Below are positions 4,927 through 22,344 of a DNA stretch of 38,880 nt, one piece after another; the first letter of the stretch is position 1; each line of letters opens with the position of its first letter. The stretch comes from a virus, in IMG/VR virus record IMGVR_UViG_3300022594_000012, positions 1-38,880 of that record, one strand, 5' to 3'. The notes under the pieces are model-generated. The model saw nothing but the letters and a program-made list of their open reading frames with translations, was not told where the DNA came from and searched no databases. The position numbers and the translations under genes are program-made.

Positions 4927-6559
4927 ATTCGAAGACGAAGACCTAGACGATGACTACGAGGATGCCGCCTGGGCCCTAGATGAAGAGGACCAATTTGAGG
5001 AAATTACGCCTCAAATGTACGCTGAGGAAGAGCTTGACGAATTTGAAGAGCTTGACCAAGACGATGACCTCGATGAGTTCTCTCAGGAGTTTGTAGATAA
5101 ACTTATTGATAAGATGATGCAATTTATGGTTGTCCTTGTCGGACATGACCTGCACCCATATCAAAAACCATTGGCTAGACGTATGATGGAATCTATCATC
5201 ATTAACGATGGTGAAGAAATTACAGCCCTAGCTGCACGTCAGTCAGGTAAGTCAGAAACTATTGCTGACACAGTATCTACGCTTATGGTGCTCCTTCCTA
5301 GACTTGCTAAGATTTACCCTGAGCTATTGGGTAAGTATAAAGACGGCTTGATGGTGGGCTTGTTTGCTCCTACTGAGTCACAGGCTGAAACTTTGTTTAG
5401 CCGTACTGTAACCCGACTTAGCTCGGAGCGAGCTTTGGACGTCTTGAGTGACCCAGAAATCGATGATGTTGCTGCCAAGGTTGGTGGTGTTACAAAAATG
5501 ATTCGACTTAAGAAGTCGGGCAGTAGCCTAACAATGATGACTGCTAACCCTAGGGCCAAGATTGAGTCTAAGTCGTTCCACCTTATCGTTATCGATGAGT
5601 GTCAGGAAGCGGATGACTTTATTGTTAACAAGTCAATCTCTCCTATGCGTGCTTACTATGCCGGTACCATGGTTAAGACCGGAACTCCTACAACTAGCAA
5701 GAACAACTTCTATCGTTCCATTCAGCTGAACCGACGTCGACAAACAGGTAAACGTGCTAGACAAAACCACTTTCAATGGGACTGGCGTGACGTTTCAAAA
5801 TATAATGATAACTATAGTCGTTTTATTAAAAAGGAAATGCTTCGCATTGGAGAAGACTCAGATGAATTCCAGATGTCGTACAACTGCAAATGGCTACTTG
5901 AACGCGGAATGTTTGTCACGAGTTCCATCATGGATGAGCTTGGTGACACGTCTCAAGAGCTCGTCAAAGTCTGGCATCAAACCCCTGTTGTGGTCGGAAT
6001 CGACCCTGCTAGAAAGATGGACTCCACTGTTGTCACAGTTGTCTGGGTGGACTGGGACCGTCCCGATGAGTTTGGCTATTTCGACCATCGAGTCTTCAAT
6101 TGGCTTGAAATCCAAGGAGACGACTGGGAAGAACAATACTTCCAAATAGTTAACTTCCTGAGTAACTATGACGTTCTAGCAATTGGTGTAGACGCCAACG
6201 GTGTAGGTGACGTAGTAGCTCAAAGACTTAAAGTTCTGATGCCTCGTGCAGAAGTTATACCATTAACTTCTAGCCAGTCAGAACAGTCTAGTAGGTTTAA
6301 ACACCTACAAGCCCTGATTCAAAGGGAAATGCTTTCATTTCCTGCCCACGCTAAGACTCGTCGCTTGAACCTCTGGAAACGTTTCTACCAGCAAATGATT
6401 GACGCCGAAATCCAATACAAGGGTAATAACTTTACCGTTGCAGCCCCGAGAGAAGCTTATGCTCACGATGACTTTGTTGATAGTTTGGCTATCGCTTGTT
6501 CTCTTACAAAGGAACTAGTAATGCCAACCGTTGAGGTTGGTAGCAATCCTTTTTATTAA
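4916..6559 (+). CDS. terL: Terminase large subunit (packaging ATPase and nuclease)
   Basis: ATG 4916 (547 residues) is chosen over GTG 4907. The first 55 residues are unusually acidic (EDEDLDDDYEDA, EFEELDQDDD). The ATPase domain has Walker A ARQSGKSE at 107-114 and Walker B LIVIDE at 223-228, with Glu228 as catalytic carboxylate, followed by a TGTPTTS coupling motif near 255-261. The RNase H-like nuclease domain shows Asp363 (VGIDPA), Asp426 (GVDANG) and the Asp518/519/522 cluster (HDDFVDS). It cuts concatemeric DNA and pumps it through the portal encoded downstream. Length and order are typical of intact TerL. No small subunit is identified in this window. Confidence 0.95.
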   Translation: MSGKFEDEDLDDDYEDAAWALDEEDQFEEITPQMYAEEELDEFEELDQDDDLDEFSQEFVDKLIDKMMQFMVVLVGHDLHPYQKPLARRMMESIIINDGEEITALAARQSGKSETIADTVSTLMVLLPRLAKIYPELLGKYKDGLMVGLFAPTESQAETLFSRTVTRLSSERALDVLSDPEIDDVAAKVGGVTKMIRLKKSGSSLTMMTANPRAKIESKSFHLIVIDECQEADDFIVNKSISPMRAYYAGTMVKTGTPTTSKNNFYRSIQLNRRRQTGKRARQNHFQWDWRDVSKYNDNYSRFIKKEMLRIGEDSDEFQMSYNCKWLLERGMFVTSSIMDELGDTSQELVKVWHQTPVVVGIDPARKMDSTVVTVVWVDWDRPDEFGYFDHRVFNWLEIQGDDWEEQYFQIVNFLSNYDVLAIGVDANGVGDVVAQRLKVLMPRAEVIPLTSSQSEQSSRFKHLQALIQREMLSFPAHAKTRRLNLWKRFYQQMIDAEIQYKGNNFTVAAPREAYAHDDFVDSLAIACSLTKELVMPTVEVGSNPFY

Positions 6560-17489: not shown

Positions 17490-18434
17490 ATGCCAGCAAA
17501 AACTACTATCAAACTTAGGGCGGGAACCCAGTCTGGCTGGGCTAGCACCGCCATGACTCAAGCCCTAACTAGCTCATTAATTACTACTGATGCTAGTGGT
17601 AACTTGGTTGCTAGGTATACCATTACAGGTTCTAGCCACACAATTACTGTTGGTCAAGTTCTTACTATTACTGGCGTTACTGTAGCTAGCGGCAACCTTC
17701 CTTACAATATTTCTGGCGGTGTTGTTAGCGGAATTGCCACTACTACGTTTGATATCAAAGTTCCTTCTGGCACTACTGCTGGTGCAGGTTCTGGCGGAAG
17801 CGCCGTTCTTGTTGTTCTAGCTACTGGTGAGGCCGCTGTTGAGACAGATACGTTTAGCCTAAAAGTTGGCGATGGCACAACTGACTGGACAAATATTCCA
17901 TATATTGGTGTACCAAACTTCTATTTAGTCCCTGGCCAAACATCTCTTTCAAATTCTACATCTCCACAGGATTTGTTTGAAAAAAAACTTCCACTTACTC
18001 CAAATACTAACTACCGATTTAAAATTGAGTTTATGCTTGTAGGAATTACTGGAATTAGTAAACACATTACTTTTTCTTTTAAACAGAGTGGTTCCGGACT
18101 GACTGGTTGGAACTTTGCTAGACTTCAATGGTCTGGTGGTACAAACACTAGTGGTACGTATGGTAAATCTACTTCACCTTTTACTGGTTTTGGATTTGCC
18201 GCAACAGTTGGGGCAATTGAAACCGGCTTAATTTTGTACGCAGACAATGCTGACGGTATTGTGTACGCCACAATTGAGGGCATTTTTCAAACTGGTAACG
18301 GTCCCTCTAACTTTGAGCCTAGACTTACATTCAGTGCTACACCGGGAATTAGTGTACAAAATCTAGCTGGTAGCTATGCGACCGTTGAGCAACTATCCCC
18401 TGCAACGATTAACTCCAAGGGTGCTTGGGTCTAG
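17490..18434 (+). CDS. Fibre protein: Mtd_N-like domain split by an inserted beta module, then globular tail
   Basis: AGGAG precedes ATG; 314 residues. The start LRAGTQSGWAST (9-20) and the block ATGEAAVETDTFSLKVGDGTTDW (111-133, shown in pieces as ATGEAAVETD and KVGDGTTDW) correspond to the first and second halves of the N-terminal domain of the gene at 13165 (RRDTAANWTS and ASGEIGVETD). About 85 residues, 25-109, lie between the halves and match the beta module of other virion proteins (HTITVGQVLTITGVT). Residues 150-314 are a beta domain (TNYRFKIEFMLVGI; IVYATIEGIFQTG) like the end of the gene at 16246. A fibre or surface adhesin is likely. Confidence 0.8.
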   Translation: MPAKTTIKLRAGTQSGWASTAMTQALTSSLITTDASGNLVARYTITGSSHTITVGQVLTITGVTVASGNLPYNISGGVVSGIATTTFDIKVPSGTTAGAGSGGSAVLVVLATGEAAVETDTFSLKVGDGTTDWTNIPYIGVPNFYLVPGQTSLSNSTSPQDLFEKKLPLTPNTNYRFKIEFMLVGITGISKHITFSFKQSGSGLTGWNFARLQWSGGTNTSGTYGKSTSPFTGFGFAATVGAIETGLILYADNADGIVYATIEGIFQTGNGPSNFEPRLTFSATPGISVQNLAGSYATVEQLSPATINSKGAWV

Positions 18435-18436
18435 TA

Positions 18437-19039
18437 ATGCGTAGCTCAGACGTTCAGGGTAGATTTAATATAGATTACGAGGCAAAGTCTCTTTACGAAG
18501 GGATTGCTGAAGACCTGGGCGGCACCGTTGGTACTGAAGTTAGCTGGTGGCAATGGTCAGATACCTACTTGGCAGAAAACTACACTGATATCGTAGATGA
18601 TGTCTATGACGTATCTAGCTCAGTTGTTGGTAAAGGTCGAATTTGGCAGTCACCAATCACCGTACCAGTCGTAATGGCTCAGCTTATTCGTTCAACCAAC
18701 GTTATGAACGAACGTGGTTTCTATGTGTCGGATACACTTCGTCTAGTTATCAATATTGATACCATTACAGAATACGTTCCGGATGTTCTAGCTAATCCTT
18801 CTAACCACATCAAGGACCGCATCGTTTATCGTGGAGAAGTATTTGTTCCTACTCGCGTACTTCCTAGAGGTGCGTTTGGAACTCGCTACGCTGTTGCAAC
18901 TATTGACTGCAACCAGATGAACTCTGAAGAGTTGGTCAATGACCCACAGTTTCAGGCTTACGCCTCACCTTCTGTGGCTGATTTTAGAACTTATGGATAC
19001 GGAAATGGCGCTTATGGCGCAGATAGCTATGGAGAGTAA
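18437..19039 (+). CDS. Probable neck / head-closure protein
   Basis: ATG 18437, two bases after the previous stop, is preferred over TTG 18425; 200 residues. The sequence is compact with no repeats: VSWWQWSDTYLAENYTDIVDDVYD, then ITVPVVMAQLIRSTNVMNERGFY and LRLVINIDTITEYVPD, KDRIVYRGEVFVPTRV. The RIVYRGEVFVPTRV part with a small beta barrel is what one expects for head-closure/stopper proteins, which sit between connector and tail. Identity is by position and general shape; I do not recognise a named family. It lies inside a block of fibre genes. Confidence 0.55.
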   Translation: MRSSDVQGRFNIDYEAKSLYEGIAEDLGGTVGTEVSWWQWSDTYLAENYTDIVDDVYDVSSSVVGKGRIWQSPITVPVVMAQLIRSTNVMNERGFYVSDTLRLVINIDTITEYVPDVLANPSNHIKDRIVYRGEVFVPTRVLPRGAFGTRYAVATIDCNQMNSEELVNDPQFQAYASPSVADFRTYGYGNGAYGADSYGE

Positions 19040-19041
19040 TT

Positions 19042-19875
19042 ATGCCACTTGTTAAGCCAACTATTGGTCAGATGAACTGGGGTACAACCCTAAATGCTGC
19101 CCTTGATTACCTAAACACTGACACATCTTCTATGCTGAACTTGGGCAATAGCGTTATCCCAACTACTGATAACGCAGTTACTCTTGGAAGTTCTAGTAAA
19201 AGATTCGCACACCTATACCTTGGTCCTGGAACCCTAAACATCACTGACTCAGTGCTAAGCACTAACGCTGCTATTACGGTAAGCAACGGTGTATTTAACA
19301 TAAATGGAATTACTCAAGCTCAGCTTCCTAGTATTAAACTTACTACCCTAACTTTTGCTGACAATACCTCCATGACAACGGCTGCTAAGCCTTTATATAA
19401 TGGTTCATTTGAGAGCACAGCTTTACAGGTATCTGGTGGAACGACCACTGCTAACCTTGTTACTGTAACTGGAGCTACAAATTCAAAAGGTATTTCGTAC
19501 GATAGTGGTGCTACCAATTCTAAAATTACTTACGCTAATGCTGGGGATTATTACATAAGTTTTAACGGTCAATTTAGGTTTTCTGGTGGAGCTAGCTCAT
19601 ATGACGTTACTGTTTGGTACGCAAAAAACGGAACTCCAGTAACTAACTCTGCTTACACCTACACTTTAACAAGTGCCCAAAATTCTCAAGTACTAGCTAA
19701 CATAACAGACATAGTTACATTAGCTGCTGGAGATTATATTCAGTTCTATTGGTATACACCGGTAGCTCCATCTACAGGACCAAATGGTATTTATCTTTGG
19801 CCAACTTCTGCCGGAACTAACCCGACCAGACCTGCTTCTCCAAGCGTAAATATTAATACATATAACGTAGGTTAA
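19042..19875 (+). CDS. Fibre protein with C1q/TNF-like tail domain
   Basis: GGAGAG at the end of the previous gene serves as ribosome site; 277 residues. The N-terminal part contains PLVKPTIGQMNWGTTLNAALD, then NAVTLGSSSKRFAHLYLGPGT (two overlapping pieces: AVTLGSSSKRF and HLYLGPGTLN), a repeat common in fibre stalks. Residues about 120-255 have the layout of a C1q/TNF-like jelly roll: YNGSFESTALQV, NAGDYYISFNGQFRF, VTVWYAKNGTPV, LAAGDYIQFYWYT. Such domains form trimers and bind ligands at the fibre tip. The protein closes the fibre block before the small basic genes. Confidence 0.8.
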   Translation: MPLVKPTIGQMNWGTTLNAALDYLNTDTSSMLNLGNSVIPTTDNAVTLGSSSKRFAHLYLGPGTLNITDSVLSTNAAITVSNGVFNINGITQAQLPSIKLTTLTFADNTSMTTAAKPLYNGSFESTALQVSGGTTTANLVTVTGATNSKGISYDSGATNSKITYANAGDYYISFNGQFRFSGGASSYDVTVWYAKNGTPVTNSAYTYTLTSAQNSQVLANITDIVTLAAGDYIQFYWYTPVAPSTGPNGIYLWPTSAGTNPTRPASPSVNINTYNVG

Positions 19876-19879
19876 TATA

Positions 19880-20005
19880 ATGCCTTTCCTTTCTCAATCT
19901 CAGCGTGCATGGATGTACGCAAATAAGCCAGAAATGGCTAAAGAGTGGGAAAAGCACACCAAAAAGAAAAAGAAACTACCTAAGAAGGTAAAACATGGCA
20001 AGTAA
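19880..20005 (+). CDS. 41-residue basic protein of a common phage family (PFLSQSQRAWM)
   Basis: ATG 19880 lies four bases after the previous stop. The peptide starts MPFLSQSQRAWMYANKPEMA and ends in a run of lysines (HTKKKKKLPKKVKHGK). The pattern PFxSxxQRxWMxAxxPxxAxxW is widespread as a short protein in phages and plasmids; its role is unknown. It overlaps the next gene by 11 bases in another frame. This begins a chain of ten tiny coupled genes. Confidence 0.8.
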   Translation: MPFLSQSQRAWMYANKPEMAKEWEKHTKKKKKLPKKVKHGK

Positions 20006-20153
20006 AACTGTTAAAATTGCAAAGACTAAGACTTCACGTCCTAAGAAAAATGGTAAGGCACCAGAGACTGTTAAGTCTCACCACTTGGCCAAAGCTACTG
20101 GTAAAAAGGCAAAAGGTGCTGTAAACACTAGCTCAAACTACGGAGTAAAATAA
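19995..20153 (+). CDS. 52-residue Lys-rich protein
   Basis: ATG 19995 overlaps the previous gene by 11 bases and the TAA shares its last base with the next ATG (TAATG). The peptide is very basic (KTVKIAKTKTSRPKKNGKA) with SHHLAKATGKKAKG in the middle. No known family. The overlap pattern, identical at most junctions of this chain, supports that it is a real gene. Confidence 0.75.
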   Translation: MASKTVKIAKTKTSRPKKNGKAPETVKSHHLAKATGKKAKGAVNTSSNYGVK

Positions 20154-20296
20154 TGCAACGCCAAAACCACAAGATTAAAACAAATGAGAAGAACACTCGT
20201 GACCGTATCGGTCGCGGTGGCAAGACTGTGCTGGGTAAGCACGCTGGCCACGTTCCAAAGCCGCCAAAGCGCATTGAACCAAAGAAGGGCAAATAA
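20153..20296 (+). CDS. 47-residue basic protein
   Basis: TAATG overlap at both ends. The peptide is rich in Lys, Arg, His and Gly (RDRIGRGGKTVLGKHAGHVP, then PKPPKRIEPKKGK), with no acidic cluster. Probably binds nucleic acid or another acidic surface; no family recognised. Confidence 0.75.
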   Translation: MQRQNHKIKTNEKNTRDRIGRGGKTVLGKHAGHVPKPPKRIEPKKGK

Positions 20297-20622
20297 TGGC
20301 TGAGAAGAAGAAGCACGCTAAAACTGCTGCTTGGACTCGTGCAGAGGGCAAAAACCCTCACGGTGGTTTGAACGCCAAGGGTCGTGCAAGTGCTAAGGCT
20401 GAGGGACACAACTTGAAAGCTCCAGTCAAGTCAGGAAATAACCCTAGACGGGCTTCTTTCCTAGCTAGAATGGCCGGAAATCCTGGTCCTGAGAGAAAGC
20501 CTAACGGTGAGCCTACTCGTCTCCTGCTGTCACTAGAGGCCTGGGGAGCGTCATCTAAAGCAGATGCTCGTAAGAAGGCTGCGGCTATCCGCAAGGCCAA
20601 CGAGGGCAAAAAGAACAAGTAA
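20296..20622 (+). CDS. DUF6321-like basic protein
   Basis: The 108-residue protein contains AAWTRAEGKNPHGGLNAKGR (11-30), then NLKAPVKSGNNPRRASFLARM, matching the DUF6321 pattern seen in many phage and viral genomes. The end is rich in Ala, Lys and Arg (KADARKKAAAIRKANEGKKNK in part). The family has no assigned role. TAATG overlaps on both sides place it in the same transcript as its neighbours. Confidence 0.8.
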   Translation: MAEKKKHAKTAAWTRAEGKNPHGGLNAKGRASAKAEGHNLKAPVKSGNNPRRASFLARMAGNPGPERKPNGEPTRLLLSLEAWGASSKADARKKAAAIRKANEGKKNK

Positions 20623-20936
20623 TGGGCGCCCGTAAAGTTGCTCGCATAGTACATACCGTTGTAGGTATTACTAGCTCTGATAACCCCGCTGAAAAAGCGG
20701 GCAAGGTTGTAGCTGCTGCGGTAACTGCTGCCCACCCAGTTGTGGGACGTGTTCTCAGAAAACCAATTCGTAAAGCAACTGAGGCAGTTGTAAACAAAGG
20801 AATTGAAATTGCAAAAAAGCCTGAAGTTCAGGCAGCTGTAAAAAATACGGTTTCCACCGCAGGTCGCCACGCTAGGTCTTTAATGGACCAGGGAGTGCGA
20901 AAAGCGAAGGCGTTTAGAGAAGGTAAAAATGGCTGA
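20622..20936 (+). CDS. Basic, Ala/Val-rich helical protein of 104 residues
   Basis: Starts at TAATG and overlaps the next gene by eight bases. The N-terminal half has a moderately hydrophobic helical region (VVAAAVTAAHPVVGRVLRKP) and the C-terminal half basic amphipathic helices (KKPEVQAAVKNTVSTAGR; SLMDQGVRKAKAFREGKNG). It could associate with membranes or DNA. No family recognised. Confidence 0.75.
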   Translation: MGARKVARIVHTVVGITSSDNPAEKAGKVVAAAVTAAHPVVGRVLRKPIRKATEAVVNKGIEIAKKPEVQAAVKNTVSTAGRHARSLMDQGVRKAKAFREGKNG

Positions 20937-21210
20937 AACTAAGAAATTTGGGCCCTATAAGGGTTCTGCTGCTAATGGTGGCCGCCCTATTTATGTATAT
21001 AAAACTAAGGGCAAAGATGGTAAATGGCACACCACTTCTAAGAACAAAGCTCGTGCAGACTACGAAGGCAAGCACGGTAAGCTACCTAGAGATACCGATG
21101 TTGACCACAAAAACAACAAGCATGATGATGACCGTAAGTCTAACCTACGTCCTCTAAAGCATGGTAAGAACACCGCTAAAGAAAACAAACGTAGAGCTGG
21201 TAAAAAATGA
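20929..21210 (+). CDS. Small HNH-like nuclease within the basic gene chain
   Basis: The 93-residue product ends with an HNH-like core: DTDVDHKNNKHDDDRKSNLR (Asp59-His60, Asn72), then PLKHGKNTAKENKRR with His78. There are no zinc cysteines, unlike the larger HNH protein at 21970. The N-terminal part (GRPIYVYKTKGKDGKWHTT) is a small beta segment, similar to DNA-binding parts of HNH homing enzymes. Likely cuts or nicks DNA; whether it is a homing enzyme or part of packaging is unknown. It overlaps neighbours on both sides, so it is integrated into the operon rather than a free insertion. Confidence 0.75.
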   Translation: MAETKKFGPYKGSAANGGRPIYVYKTKGKDGKWHTTSKNKARADYEGKHGKLPRDTDVDHKNNKHDDDRKSNLRPLKHGKNTAKENKRRAGKK

Positions 21211-21362
21211 TTTATGATGATATGGTAAAACAAACGGGCATAGACCCGTTGGCTCCACAGACTTTTGAGCAATACCCGCCACTTAGTGCGGAGCAGCAAA
21301 AGATTGTCGATAGAATAGACCCTAAGATTATAGGCCAAGTGGCAGAAAGTCAGGGAATGTAA
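21207..21362 (+). CDS. 51-residue non-basic protein in the small-gene chain
   Basis: Starts at an ATGA overlap with the HNH-like gene and ends at a TAATG overlap with the next. Unlike its neighbours it is slightly acidic: DPLAPQTFEQYPPLSAEQQK, then IVDRIDPKIIGQVAESQGM. No motif recognised. It could be an antagonist or partner of the basic products. Confidence 0.7.
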   Translation: MIYDDMVKQTGIDPLAPQTFEQYPPLSAEQQKIVDRIDPKIIGQVAESQGM

Positions 21363-21427
21363 TGCCTGAATGCAAGTGCGACAACTGTGGTTGTGGCAAG
21401 AAAGAAGAATCAAATGGCAATGTGTAA
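21362..21427 (+). CDS. 21-residue cysteine-rich microprotein
   Basis: A 22-codon ORF beginning at TAATG and overlapping the next gene by 14 bases. The sequence MPECKCDNCGCGKKEESNGNV has Cys at 4, 6, 9 and 11, closely matching the start of the next protein (MAMCKCGKCAECKK). The four cysteines could bind a metal ion. The gene is below most size limits for gene calling, but the overlaps and the paralogous neighbour support it. Confidence 0.5.
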   Translation: MPECKCDNCGCGKKEESNGNV

Positions 21428-21695
21428 GTGTGGCAAGTGCGCTGAATGTAAGAAGCGTATGGCCGACAAGAAGAAGACCGGCAAGAAGATGCCACCATGG
21501 ATTGGCACTGCTGCTGACAAGAAGCAAGACGCTAAGACCGAAAAGGGTATGACTCCTGCTGAAAAGAAAAAGTTTGAAAAGGCAGACGCCAAGATGGACA
21601 AGGACAAGTCTTTGACCAAGAAGGAAGACACCAAGAAGGACAATGCCTTGGCAAAGCGCATTAAGGCAGCCGACAAAGGAAAGAAGAAGAAATAA
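21414..21695 (+). CDS. Basic protein with N-terminal CxCxxCxxC cluster
   Basis: ATG 21414 is chosen (ATG 21420 is possible). The 93-residue protein starts MAMCKCGKCAECKK with Cys 4, 6, 9 and 12, followed by an almost purely charged sequence rich in Lys and Asp (KKKTGKKMPPW; MTPAEKKKFEKADAKMDKDK). The cluster probably binds a metal. The rest resembles histone-tail-like disordered proteins. Ends at a TAATG overlap. Confidence 0.75.
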   Translation: MAMCKCGKCAECKKRMADKKKTGKKMPPWIGTAADKKQDAKTEKGMTPAEKKKFEKADAKMDKDKSLTKKEDTKKDNALAKRIKAADKGKKKK

Positions 21696-21913
21696 TGGCA
21701 AATAGCATGAAACCAAAAACGGTAGTTAAAGCTGCGTTGAAAAAAGACCCAAGTAACAAAGGACTTAAAGCTGACCTTGCTGGCCTAAAGAAGAAGCCAA
21801 CAAGTAAATCTGTAGCTCGCGGTAAGGCTGCCGGAGAAGCTATGGGTAAGGGAATTGCTAAAGTAATTTCTACTAGCTCAGCTAACCCAGCTGGTATGCG
21901 TAAGAAAGTCTAA
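21695..21913 (+). CDS. 72-residue basic protein, last gene of the chain
   Basis: Starts at TAATG. Sequence rich in Lys, Ala and Gly (KPKTVVKAALKKDPSNKG; KSVARGKAAGEAMGKGIAK) with a short tail SANPAGMRKKV. No family recognised. It is followed by a strong terminator, so it closes the micro-operon. Confidence 0.75.
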   Translation: MANSMKPKTVVKAALKKDPSNKGLKADLAGLKKKPTSKSVARGKAAGEAMGKGIAKVISTSSANPAGMRKKV

Positions 21914-21928
21914 ATTCCAACACAAACA

Positions 21929-21956
21929 AACCCCTTGCATTGCAGGGGGTTTTTTG
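21929..21956 (+). terminator. Rho-independent terminator after the small basic genes
   Basis: AACCCCTTGC and GCAGGGGGTT fold into a GC-rich stem (from 21929) followed by TTTTTT to 21956. It separates the micro-operon from the HNH gene at 21970, whose start lies only 13 bases further. Confidence 0.9.
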
Positions 21957-21969
21957 TTACCCTAGTTTC

Positions 21970-22344
21970 ATGAAGCGCACTAAAAAAGCGATACATAAGC
22001 TGTCTGAAATTGATGATGACCTACTTATGGCTTACTGCTCCGAATGCGAGACTCTAGTAAAGATTCTAAAAGAGATTCGCTCAGACGGTAAGGCGCGTTA
22101 TCGCTGTAAAAACAGGCATCGTGACACCTTAAACCTTACTAAGGCCCCCTATCGCCAGTTCAAAAAAGACCGTTGTGAAGACCCGGACTGCACGGCTACT
22201 ATCCTATACTCATGTCAGCTTACAGTTGACCATATAGACGGTAACCGCCACAATAATGACATTTCAAACCTAATGACATTGTGCCATAACTGCCATGCCC
22301 TAAAGTCTTTCCGCAACAATGACTACGTAAATAAATACGATTAG
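21970..22344 (+). CDS. HNH endonuclease with zinc-binding cysteines
   Basis: ATG 21970 (124 residues) is preferred over starts that would lie inside the terminator. An N-terminal treble-clef-like piece holds AYCSEC (Cys23, Cys26) and YRCKNRH. The HNH core is RCEDPDC (Cys69, Cys74), LTVDHIDGNRHNNDISNL (Asp87-His88, Asn96 region) and LCHNCHALK (Cys105, Cys108). It resembles free-standing homing-type HNH nucleases that lie between phage genes. There is no ribosome site and it lies after a terminator, so it may be expressed on its own or be a recent insertion. Confidence 0.85.
   Translation: MKRTKKAIHKLSEIDDDLLMAYCSECETLVKILKEIRSDGKARYRCKNRHRDTLNLTKAPYRQFKKDRCEDPDCTATILYSCQLTVDHIDGNRHNNDISNLMTLCHNCHALKSFRNNDYVNKYD

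Follow-up and report, generated by a model that had tools for sequence, protein, structure and literature searches.

A reshuffling island of small, mostly basic proteins that includes a DUF6321 gene in the late region of an aquatic contractile-tailed phage

The window analysed here is a linear virus record of 38.9 kb, probably a genome fragment, from an aquatic, contractile-tailed phage. Its late region contains ten tiny consecutive ORFs, all located head-to-tail on the plus strand between positions 19880 and 21913 (Table 1), as described in the first-pass annotation. The ORFs overlap at all nine junctions, by a single base in TAATG at five, by four bases in ATGA at one, and by 8 to 11 bases at the remaining three, so that the earlier description of the junctions as almost all TAATG or ATGA applies to six of the nine. 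Eight of the ten products are strongly basic, with net charges of +10 to +19, and the statement that they are mostly basic thus holds for all except p7 and p8. The array closes with a hairpin that corresponds to the strong terminator noted earlier.

Table 1. Coordinates in the window of the ten ORFs and of the features that follow them.
Feature	Position	Strand	Description
p1	19880..20005	+	41 aa, basic, PFxSxxQRxWM type
p2	19995..20153	+	52 aa, basic
p3	20153..20296	+	47 aa, basic
p4	20296..20622	+	108 aa, DUF6321 domain protein
p5	20622..20936	+	104 aa, basic
p6	20929..21210	+	93 aa, basic, HNH-like
p7	21207..21362	+	51 aa, acidic, net charge -4
p8	21362..21427	+	21 aa, Cys-cluster peptide, net charge -1
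p9	21414..21695	+	91-93 aa (ATG at 21414 or 21420), Cys cluster and helical Lys-rich domain
p10	21695..21913	+	72 aa, basic, no relative found
Intrinsic-terminator-like hairpin	21928..21952	+	11-bp stem, T tail
Free-standing HNH endonuclease gene	21970..22344	+	past the terminator; PF01844 24.6 bits (cut-off 21.4)

Non-identical relatives were identified for nine of the ten ORFs (p1 to p9), mostly within the same island of other phages. In comparisons with these relatives, changes were in excess at third codon positions and the median pN/pS values ranged from 0.20 to 0.64, as compared with 0.34 and 0.40 for the adjoining structural genes; judged by these patterns, p1 to p9 are under purifying selection. 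The largest sets of distinct relatives were obtained for p4 (94; median pN/pS 0.25), p9 (46; 0.36), and p1 (29 to 35 in islands; 0.35), the latter with invariant residues A14, P17, A20, T27, and L33. Smaller sets were found for p2 (six; 0.48), p3 (four; 0.40), and p8 (six; third-position excess of 36 versus 8 and 9), and the median value for p6 was 0.23. The p5 protein had four distinct relatives of 38% to 53% identity, the two best of which were located in the syntenic islands L088 and L089, and the weakest value of the set, 0.64. Two distinct relatives, of 80% and 57% identity and both in syntenic islands, were found for p7. The idea that p5 and p7 are private to the window phage and one near-identical contig was dropped when dedicated scans gave further relatives.

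No relatives of p10 were found in IMG/VR. Its own-frame synonymous codon score of 0.162 was like that of other genes and above those of all other frames, and it was counted as coding on its codon usage alone. Own-frame codon scores were positive for eight of the ten ORFs and negative for two long antisense ORFs (20358-20870 and 21060-21716), which look like by-products of Lys-rich coding. That the ten ORFs are a coding artefact, since Lys-rich stretches also give rise to long antisense ORFs, is next to impossible given the nine conserved frames with their third-position excess and the codon scores, and for p1 to p9 this comparison of sequences already refutes it. The first-pass annotation had named a lack of frame conservation in related phages as grounds for abandoning its reading; the late-region locus is real and the frames of p1 to p9 are conserved.

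The p4 protein, earlier described as DUF6321-like, matched PF19846 (DUF6321) across profile positions 1 to 72 of 72 (E = 2e-20; 73.6 bits against the curated Pfam cut-off of 28.5) and is a member of this family. Its AF2 model was helical, with a mean pLDDT of 81.5, and gave no PDB match at E <= 0.001 and a Z score of at most 2.3 in a second look; the convincing BFVD matches were DUF6321 proteins or fusions. It was also noted that one BFVD match is a DUF6321 protein named Ferritin/DPS, and that a Dps/ferritin-like ORF, recognised by eye, is located just upstream of p1- and p4-type genes in contig L052 (2275-3984). The model of p9 was likewise helical (mean pLDDT 73.8), and its fold comparison gave no match.

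The HNH-like core reported earlier was located in p6, which matched a PHROG HNH endonuclease (E = 9.5e-6) and contained the conserved D-H, N, and final H/N positions, with D59, H60, N72, and N81 invariant among 36 sequences. However, the HNH_3 score of 22.5 bits was below the Pfam cut-off of 24.8, and we therefore refer to p6 as HNH-like and not as a member of an HNH family. By its conserved residues, p6 may be a packaged nuclease or an agent of island mobility. No functional assignments were obtained for p1 to p3, p5, p7, p9, and p10 with Pfam, PHROGs, NCBIfam, and PADLOC, nor for p8 with Pfam and PHROGs. The PADLOC anti-phage defence models matched none of the nine proteins p1 to p7, p9, and p10, and its nuclease models were matched solely by the neighbouring HNH gene at 21970. 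A DNA search with the island against annotated phages gave no match.

To compare the island among related contigs, loci were collected in two sets. The first was picked by p4, and a second set was therefore fetched via the downstream tail-terminator gene; among the contigs of this set with sufficient upstream sequence, the small-gene families were again present, with or without p4. The island extends from a minor-tail gene (18434-19039 in the window) to the neck genes. The 54 distinct islands spanned 3.2 kb at the median and encoded a median of 11 small ORFs, of which 9 were basic; together they contained about 16 families in 50 different gene orders. The most widespread members were the p9-type (39 islands) and p4 (35) families, followed by p6 (34) and p1 (29). 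Junction counts across the 54 islands were not taken as evidence, since the ORF caller rewards short overlaps. In sister contigs with terminases of 70% to 80% identity, p4 was found elsewhere, upstream of the terminase gene at a distance of a few kilobases, often together with p6 or the F7 family. In many related contigs, a gene of the same family as the HNH gene at 21970-22344 separated p9 from the neck genes, and this recurrent gene past the terminator marks an insertion site.

Two families that are absent from the window's own island, F20 (phrog_17747) and F16 (phrog_14910), were found together, adjacent and in the same order in 24 of 24 islands. Loci with the pair include L002, L018, L084 (MEP402), and L083 (Hodr). 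The two families are also paired in other phage types and are fused in phage Hodr, and they likely represent a two-component unit. The locus as a whole is a reshuffling island and no fixed operon: the synteny search proposed in the first-pass annotation recovered the same families in related islands but not their order, and its suggestion of a previously undescribed fixed functional unit does not stand in view of the 50 orders and of the absence of the whole island from the soil relative GiJojo.

The fibre-like gene that adjoins the island (19042-19875 in the window) was conserved at 74% to 81% in its first ~70 residues and differed in the remainder. Its counterpart in L009 (7374-7589) encodes only 71 aa, with the conserved start joined to the end motif GFLYVCVATNTWKRTAL.SW, which also occurs as a separate ORF in L002 (region 5299-6437) and L012. 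This gene looks like a shuffling adhesin. Outside the island, the window contained a Lys/Ala/Pro-rich ORF of 208 aa (1819-2445) that belonged to no family.

The portal protein of the window phage was 55% identical to the portals of Streptomyces myoviruses such as BRock and GiJojo, and by this kinship its host is probably actinobacterial. The genes for the terminase, portal, scaffold, capsid, minor-tail, tail-terminator, sheath, and tube proteins were present in the same order in GiJojo, whereas the segment between the tail spike and the tail terminator in GiJojo contained two larger genes alone. None of the island families was found in 44 kb of GiJojo, and DUF6321 was absent from its entire genome. 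The island, which is conserved and reshuffled among the related contigs, is thus accessory, and since GiJojo has the same morphogenesis genes, it is unnecessary for such virions.

The DUF6321 domain was identified in 473 of 50,697 annotated phage records, mostly of cyanophages and pelagiphages, and had no assigned function; nor was any description of it found in a literature search. Searches of bacterial genomes gave just 11 metagenome-assembled contigs, from a wide range of phyla, and those of plasmids gave none. The family is therefore phage-borne, and an origin from bacteria or plasmids was rejected. In the Methylophilales phage MEP402, the DUF6321 gene and the micro-ORFs of F20 and F16 lie immediately upstream of the terminase gene, and in the Pelagibacter phage HTVC033P the DUF6321 gene is part of a late cluster with the same two families. 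These clusters, for which no description as a unit was found in the literature, resemble the window's island in that DUF6321 and micro-ORFs share one late cluster, but they differ in virion type, host, and the presence of F16 and F20.

In cyanophages, DUF6321 is encoded between the terminase genes, a stretch for which frequent gene turnover has been described (PMC3037559), either as a small protein (Syn1_112) or as the C-terminus of larger ones. These T4-GC 119/DUF6321 proteins (Syn1_112, SSM1_115, SSCSM1_29, S-CREM2 gp137) share with p4 the Pfam domain, the late position, and the location in a variable region, but in many cases follow other small domains or a leader within one protein and belong to phages of another family and host. 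We also noted a contig, L070 (5589-9398), in which DUF6321 lies in the middle (residues ~803-903) of a repeat-rich protein of 1269 aa.

Cyanophages also provided the virion data. In the published mass spectrometry table for S-CREM2 virions, ORF137 (108049-109521) is listed with 4 unique peptides and its neighbour ORF136 with 8 (PMC10665884). We mapped the DUF6321 domain to ORF137 (40.8 bits; cut-off 28.5), so a DUF6321 protein is present in S-CREM2 virions; ORF136 is basic, with a net charge of +23. The DUF6321 protein of S-SCSM1, SSCSM1_29, which adjoins the terminase, is labelled "virion protein" in its record. As we counted 48 such labels, as compared with 45 proteins reported by mass spectrometry (PMC9602691), and several predicted structural genes have no label, the label most likely denotes detection, which strongly suggests that the protein is in the virion.

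In contrast, the DUF6321 protein of S-SZBM1 (SSZBM1_192) was not among 30 detected virion proteins (PMC9146016), and that of S-SM1 was called hypothetical although the virion proteome was analysed. Fourteen virion proteins were detected in S-CREM1, which contains the DUF6321 gene SCREM1_179. Negative proteomes weigh little here, since digestion with trypsin leaves few usable peptides from small proteins rich in Lys and Arg; there were 1 to 6 such peptides for each of p1 to p10. The well-detected S-SZBM1_195 (87 aa) was considered as a DUF6321 protein and rejected, as it is a different, acidic protein. This protein, encoded next to the small terminase subunit (L187, 13378-13641) and called hypothetical, had the third-highest emPAI in the virion table and is perhaps a head decoration protein.

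The internal proteins of T4 carry capsid-targeting propeptides of 10 to 19 residues, in which residues 4 and 7 matter, and the T4 head protease cuts after L/I-x-E (PMC9026906). Of 57 distinct cyanophage-type DUF6321 proteins, 18 began with a strict T4-like leader pattern, which preceded several different second modules; the pattern was found in 5 of 495 ORFs of cyanophage isolates, 2 of which were DUF6321 proteins themselves. Furthermore, two to four residues ahead of the conserved domain Trp, every one of the 57 proteins had a Glu with G/S/A after it, as compared with a Glu in 29% of five-residue windows of the same proteins; in both counts the proteins are related and not independent. This Glu resembles a prohead-protease site, and together the two signals strongly suggest head targeting in cyanophages. 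The proposal that the fusions are polyproteins cut at every module was not adopted, as internal sites were only weakly enriched (37 versus 27.3 +/- 5.0, with the domain boundary excluded).

Standalone DUF6321 proteins, including p4, lacked this Glu and started at about the same point. The HTVC033P micro-ORF gp37, a neighbour of DUF6321, was found fused to DUF6321 in the cyanophage-type contigs L269 and L270 (54% identity over 41-42 residues; E about 1e-11), and we read the fusions and the separate micro-ORFs as two probable routes to the same kind of domain.

No capsid-targeting leader was found in p4 and its close relatives, and we therefore do not class the window proteins as T4 internal proteins. 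A PHROGs scan of ten left-end and head-region proteins of the window, which is a fragment, recognised the terminase, portal, and major head protein but no head protease, and no protease is annotated between the portal and capsid genes in GiJojo. The resemblance to T4 IPI, IPII, IPIII, and Alt is that these are small accessory proteins, variable between related phages, that travel inside the head and leave it with the DNA (PMC9026906), and that a comparable leader and Glu processing-like site are seen in cyanophage DUF6321 proteins. The window proteins differ in that they are leaderless, come as ten separate micro-ORFs in a shuffling late island, have no recognised head protease beside them, and have no sequence relation to T4 internal proteins that we could see.

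In our proposal, the late operon carries an accessory island that reshuffles, and the ten genes represent one of its alleles. The island's products would be packaged in the head with the DNA and then ejected, as the T4 internal proteins are. The products would be DNA-associated, at least some would leave the head with the genome, and the varying members, other than p4 and p9, may be host-facing accessory genes. In cyanophages, a capsid-targeting leader or other small domains precede DUF6321, with a protease-like site where the domain begins; p4 is a free-standing ORF whose start lies close to the point at which processing would have the domain begin.

We consider the chances to be about even that the microproteins of the island, which vary from phage to phage, are associated with the DNA, packaged in the head, and probably ejected. 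Packaging in the head is favoured by the location of such genes in the late region of unrelated phages, next to those for neck, tail, or terminase proteins, whereas the leaderless p4, the head module of the window with no recognisable protease gene, the non-detection in S-SZBM1, and the hypothetical status in S-SM1 argue against it. The earlier suggestion that the products are packaged with the DNA gains support for the DUF6321 family, from the S-CREM2 peptides, the S-SCSM1 label, and the cyanophage leaders; the virion evidence is limited to this family, as no member of the other island families turned up in the cyanophage loci. For the other nine products we infer packaging, as we infer packaging of p1 to p10 in this particular phage, DNA binding, ejection, and action on the host. 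A more far-reaching and rather doubtful version is that the island belongs to an undescribed class of head-packaged microprotein cassettes, whereby phages without a head protease would encode, as separate reshuffled micro-ORFs, the same small basic domains that protease-bearing cyanophages make as leader-borne or Glu-cut fusions, and would inject a customised mixture.

The high positive charge would also fit structural aids to DNA condensation or packaging, such as protamine-like counter-ions or terminase-side factors that would remain with the genome in the head and have no task in the next host, and DUF6321 genes are indeed located beside the terminase in Methylophilales phages, cyanophages, and the sister contigs. 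Yet the virion module of GiJojo works without the island and the rapid turnover of its members would be unusual for such a role, which makes this explanation unlikely. Quite unlikely, too, is that the products are late intracellular host-takeover proteins that bind the nucleoid or RNA and stay unpackaged. Capsid-targeting-like leaders and a protease-like site would then be purposeless, and the genes are placed in structural operons, although detection in virions would be carry-over, against which the authors of both cyanophage studies warn after CsCl purification (PMC10665884, PMC9602691), and two other virion studies gave no evidence for the DUF6321 protein. It is improbable that the locus is a selfish hot spot, where the HNH genes (p6 and 21970-22344) drive insertion or gene conversion and the small genes are mostly passengers: p6-type genes occur in 34 of the 54 islands, p6 retains the catalytic positions and a second HNH gene recurs beside the island, but the small genes are under purifying selection and the same families occur without this HNH context in phages of other hosts and virion types.

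The link between DUF6321 and the virion, together with the T4-like leader, gives a testable role to a gene family that is very common in aquatic phages and, through DUF6321, to the kind of tiny gene that annotations mostly leave as hypothetical. The island itself offers a natural series of gains, losses, and reshufflings with which the functions of packaged or injected proteins may be probed.
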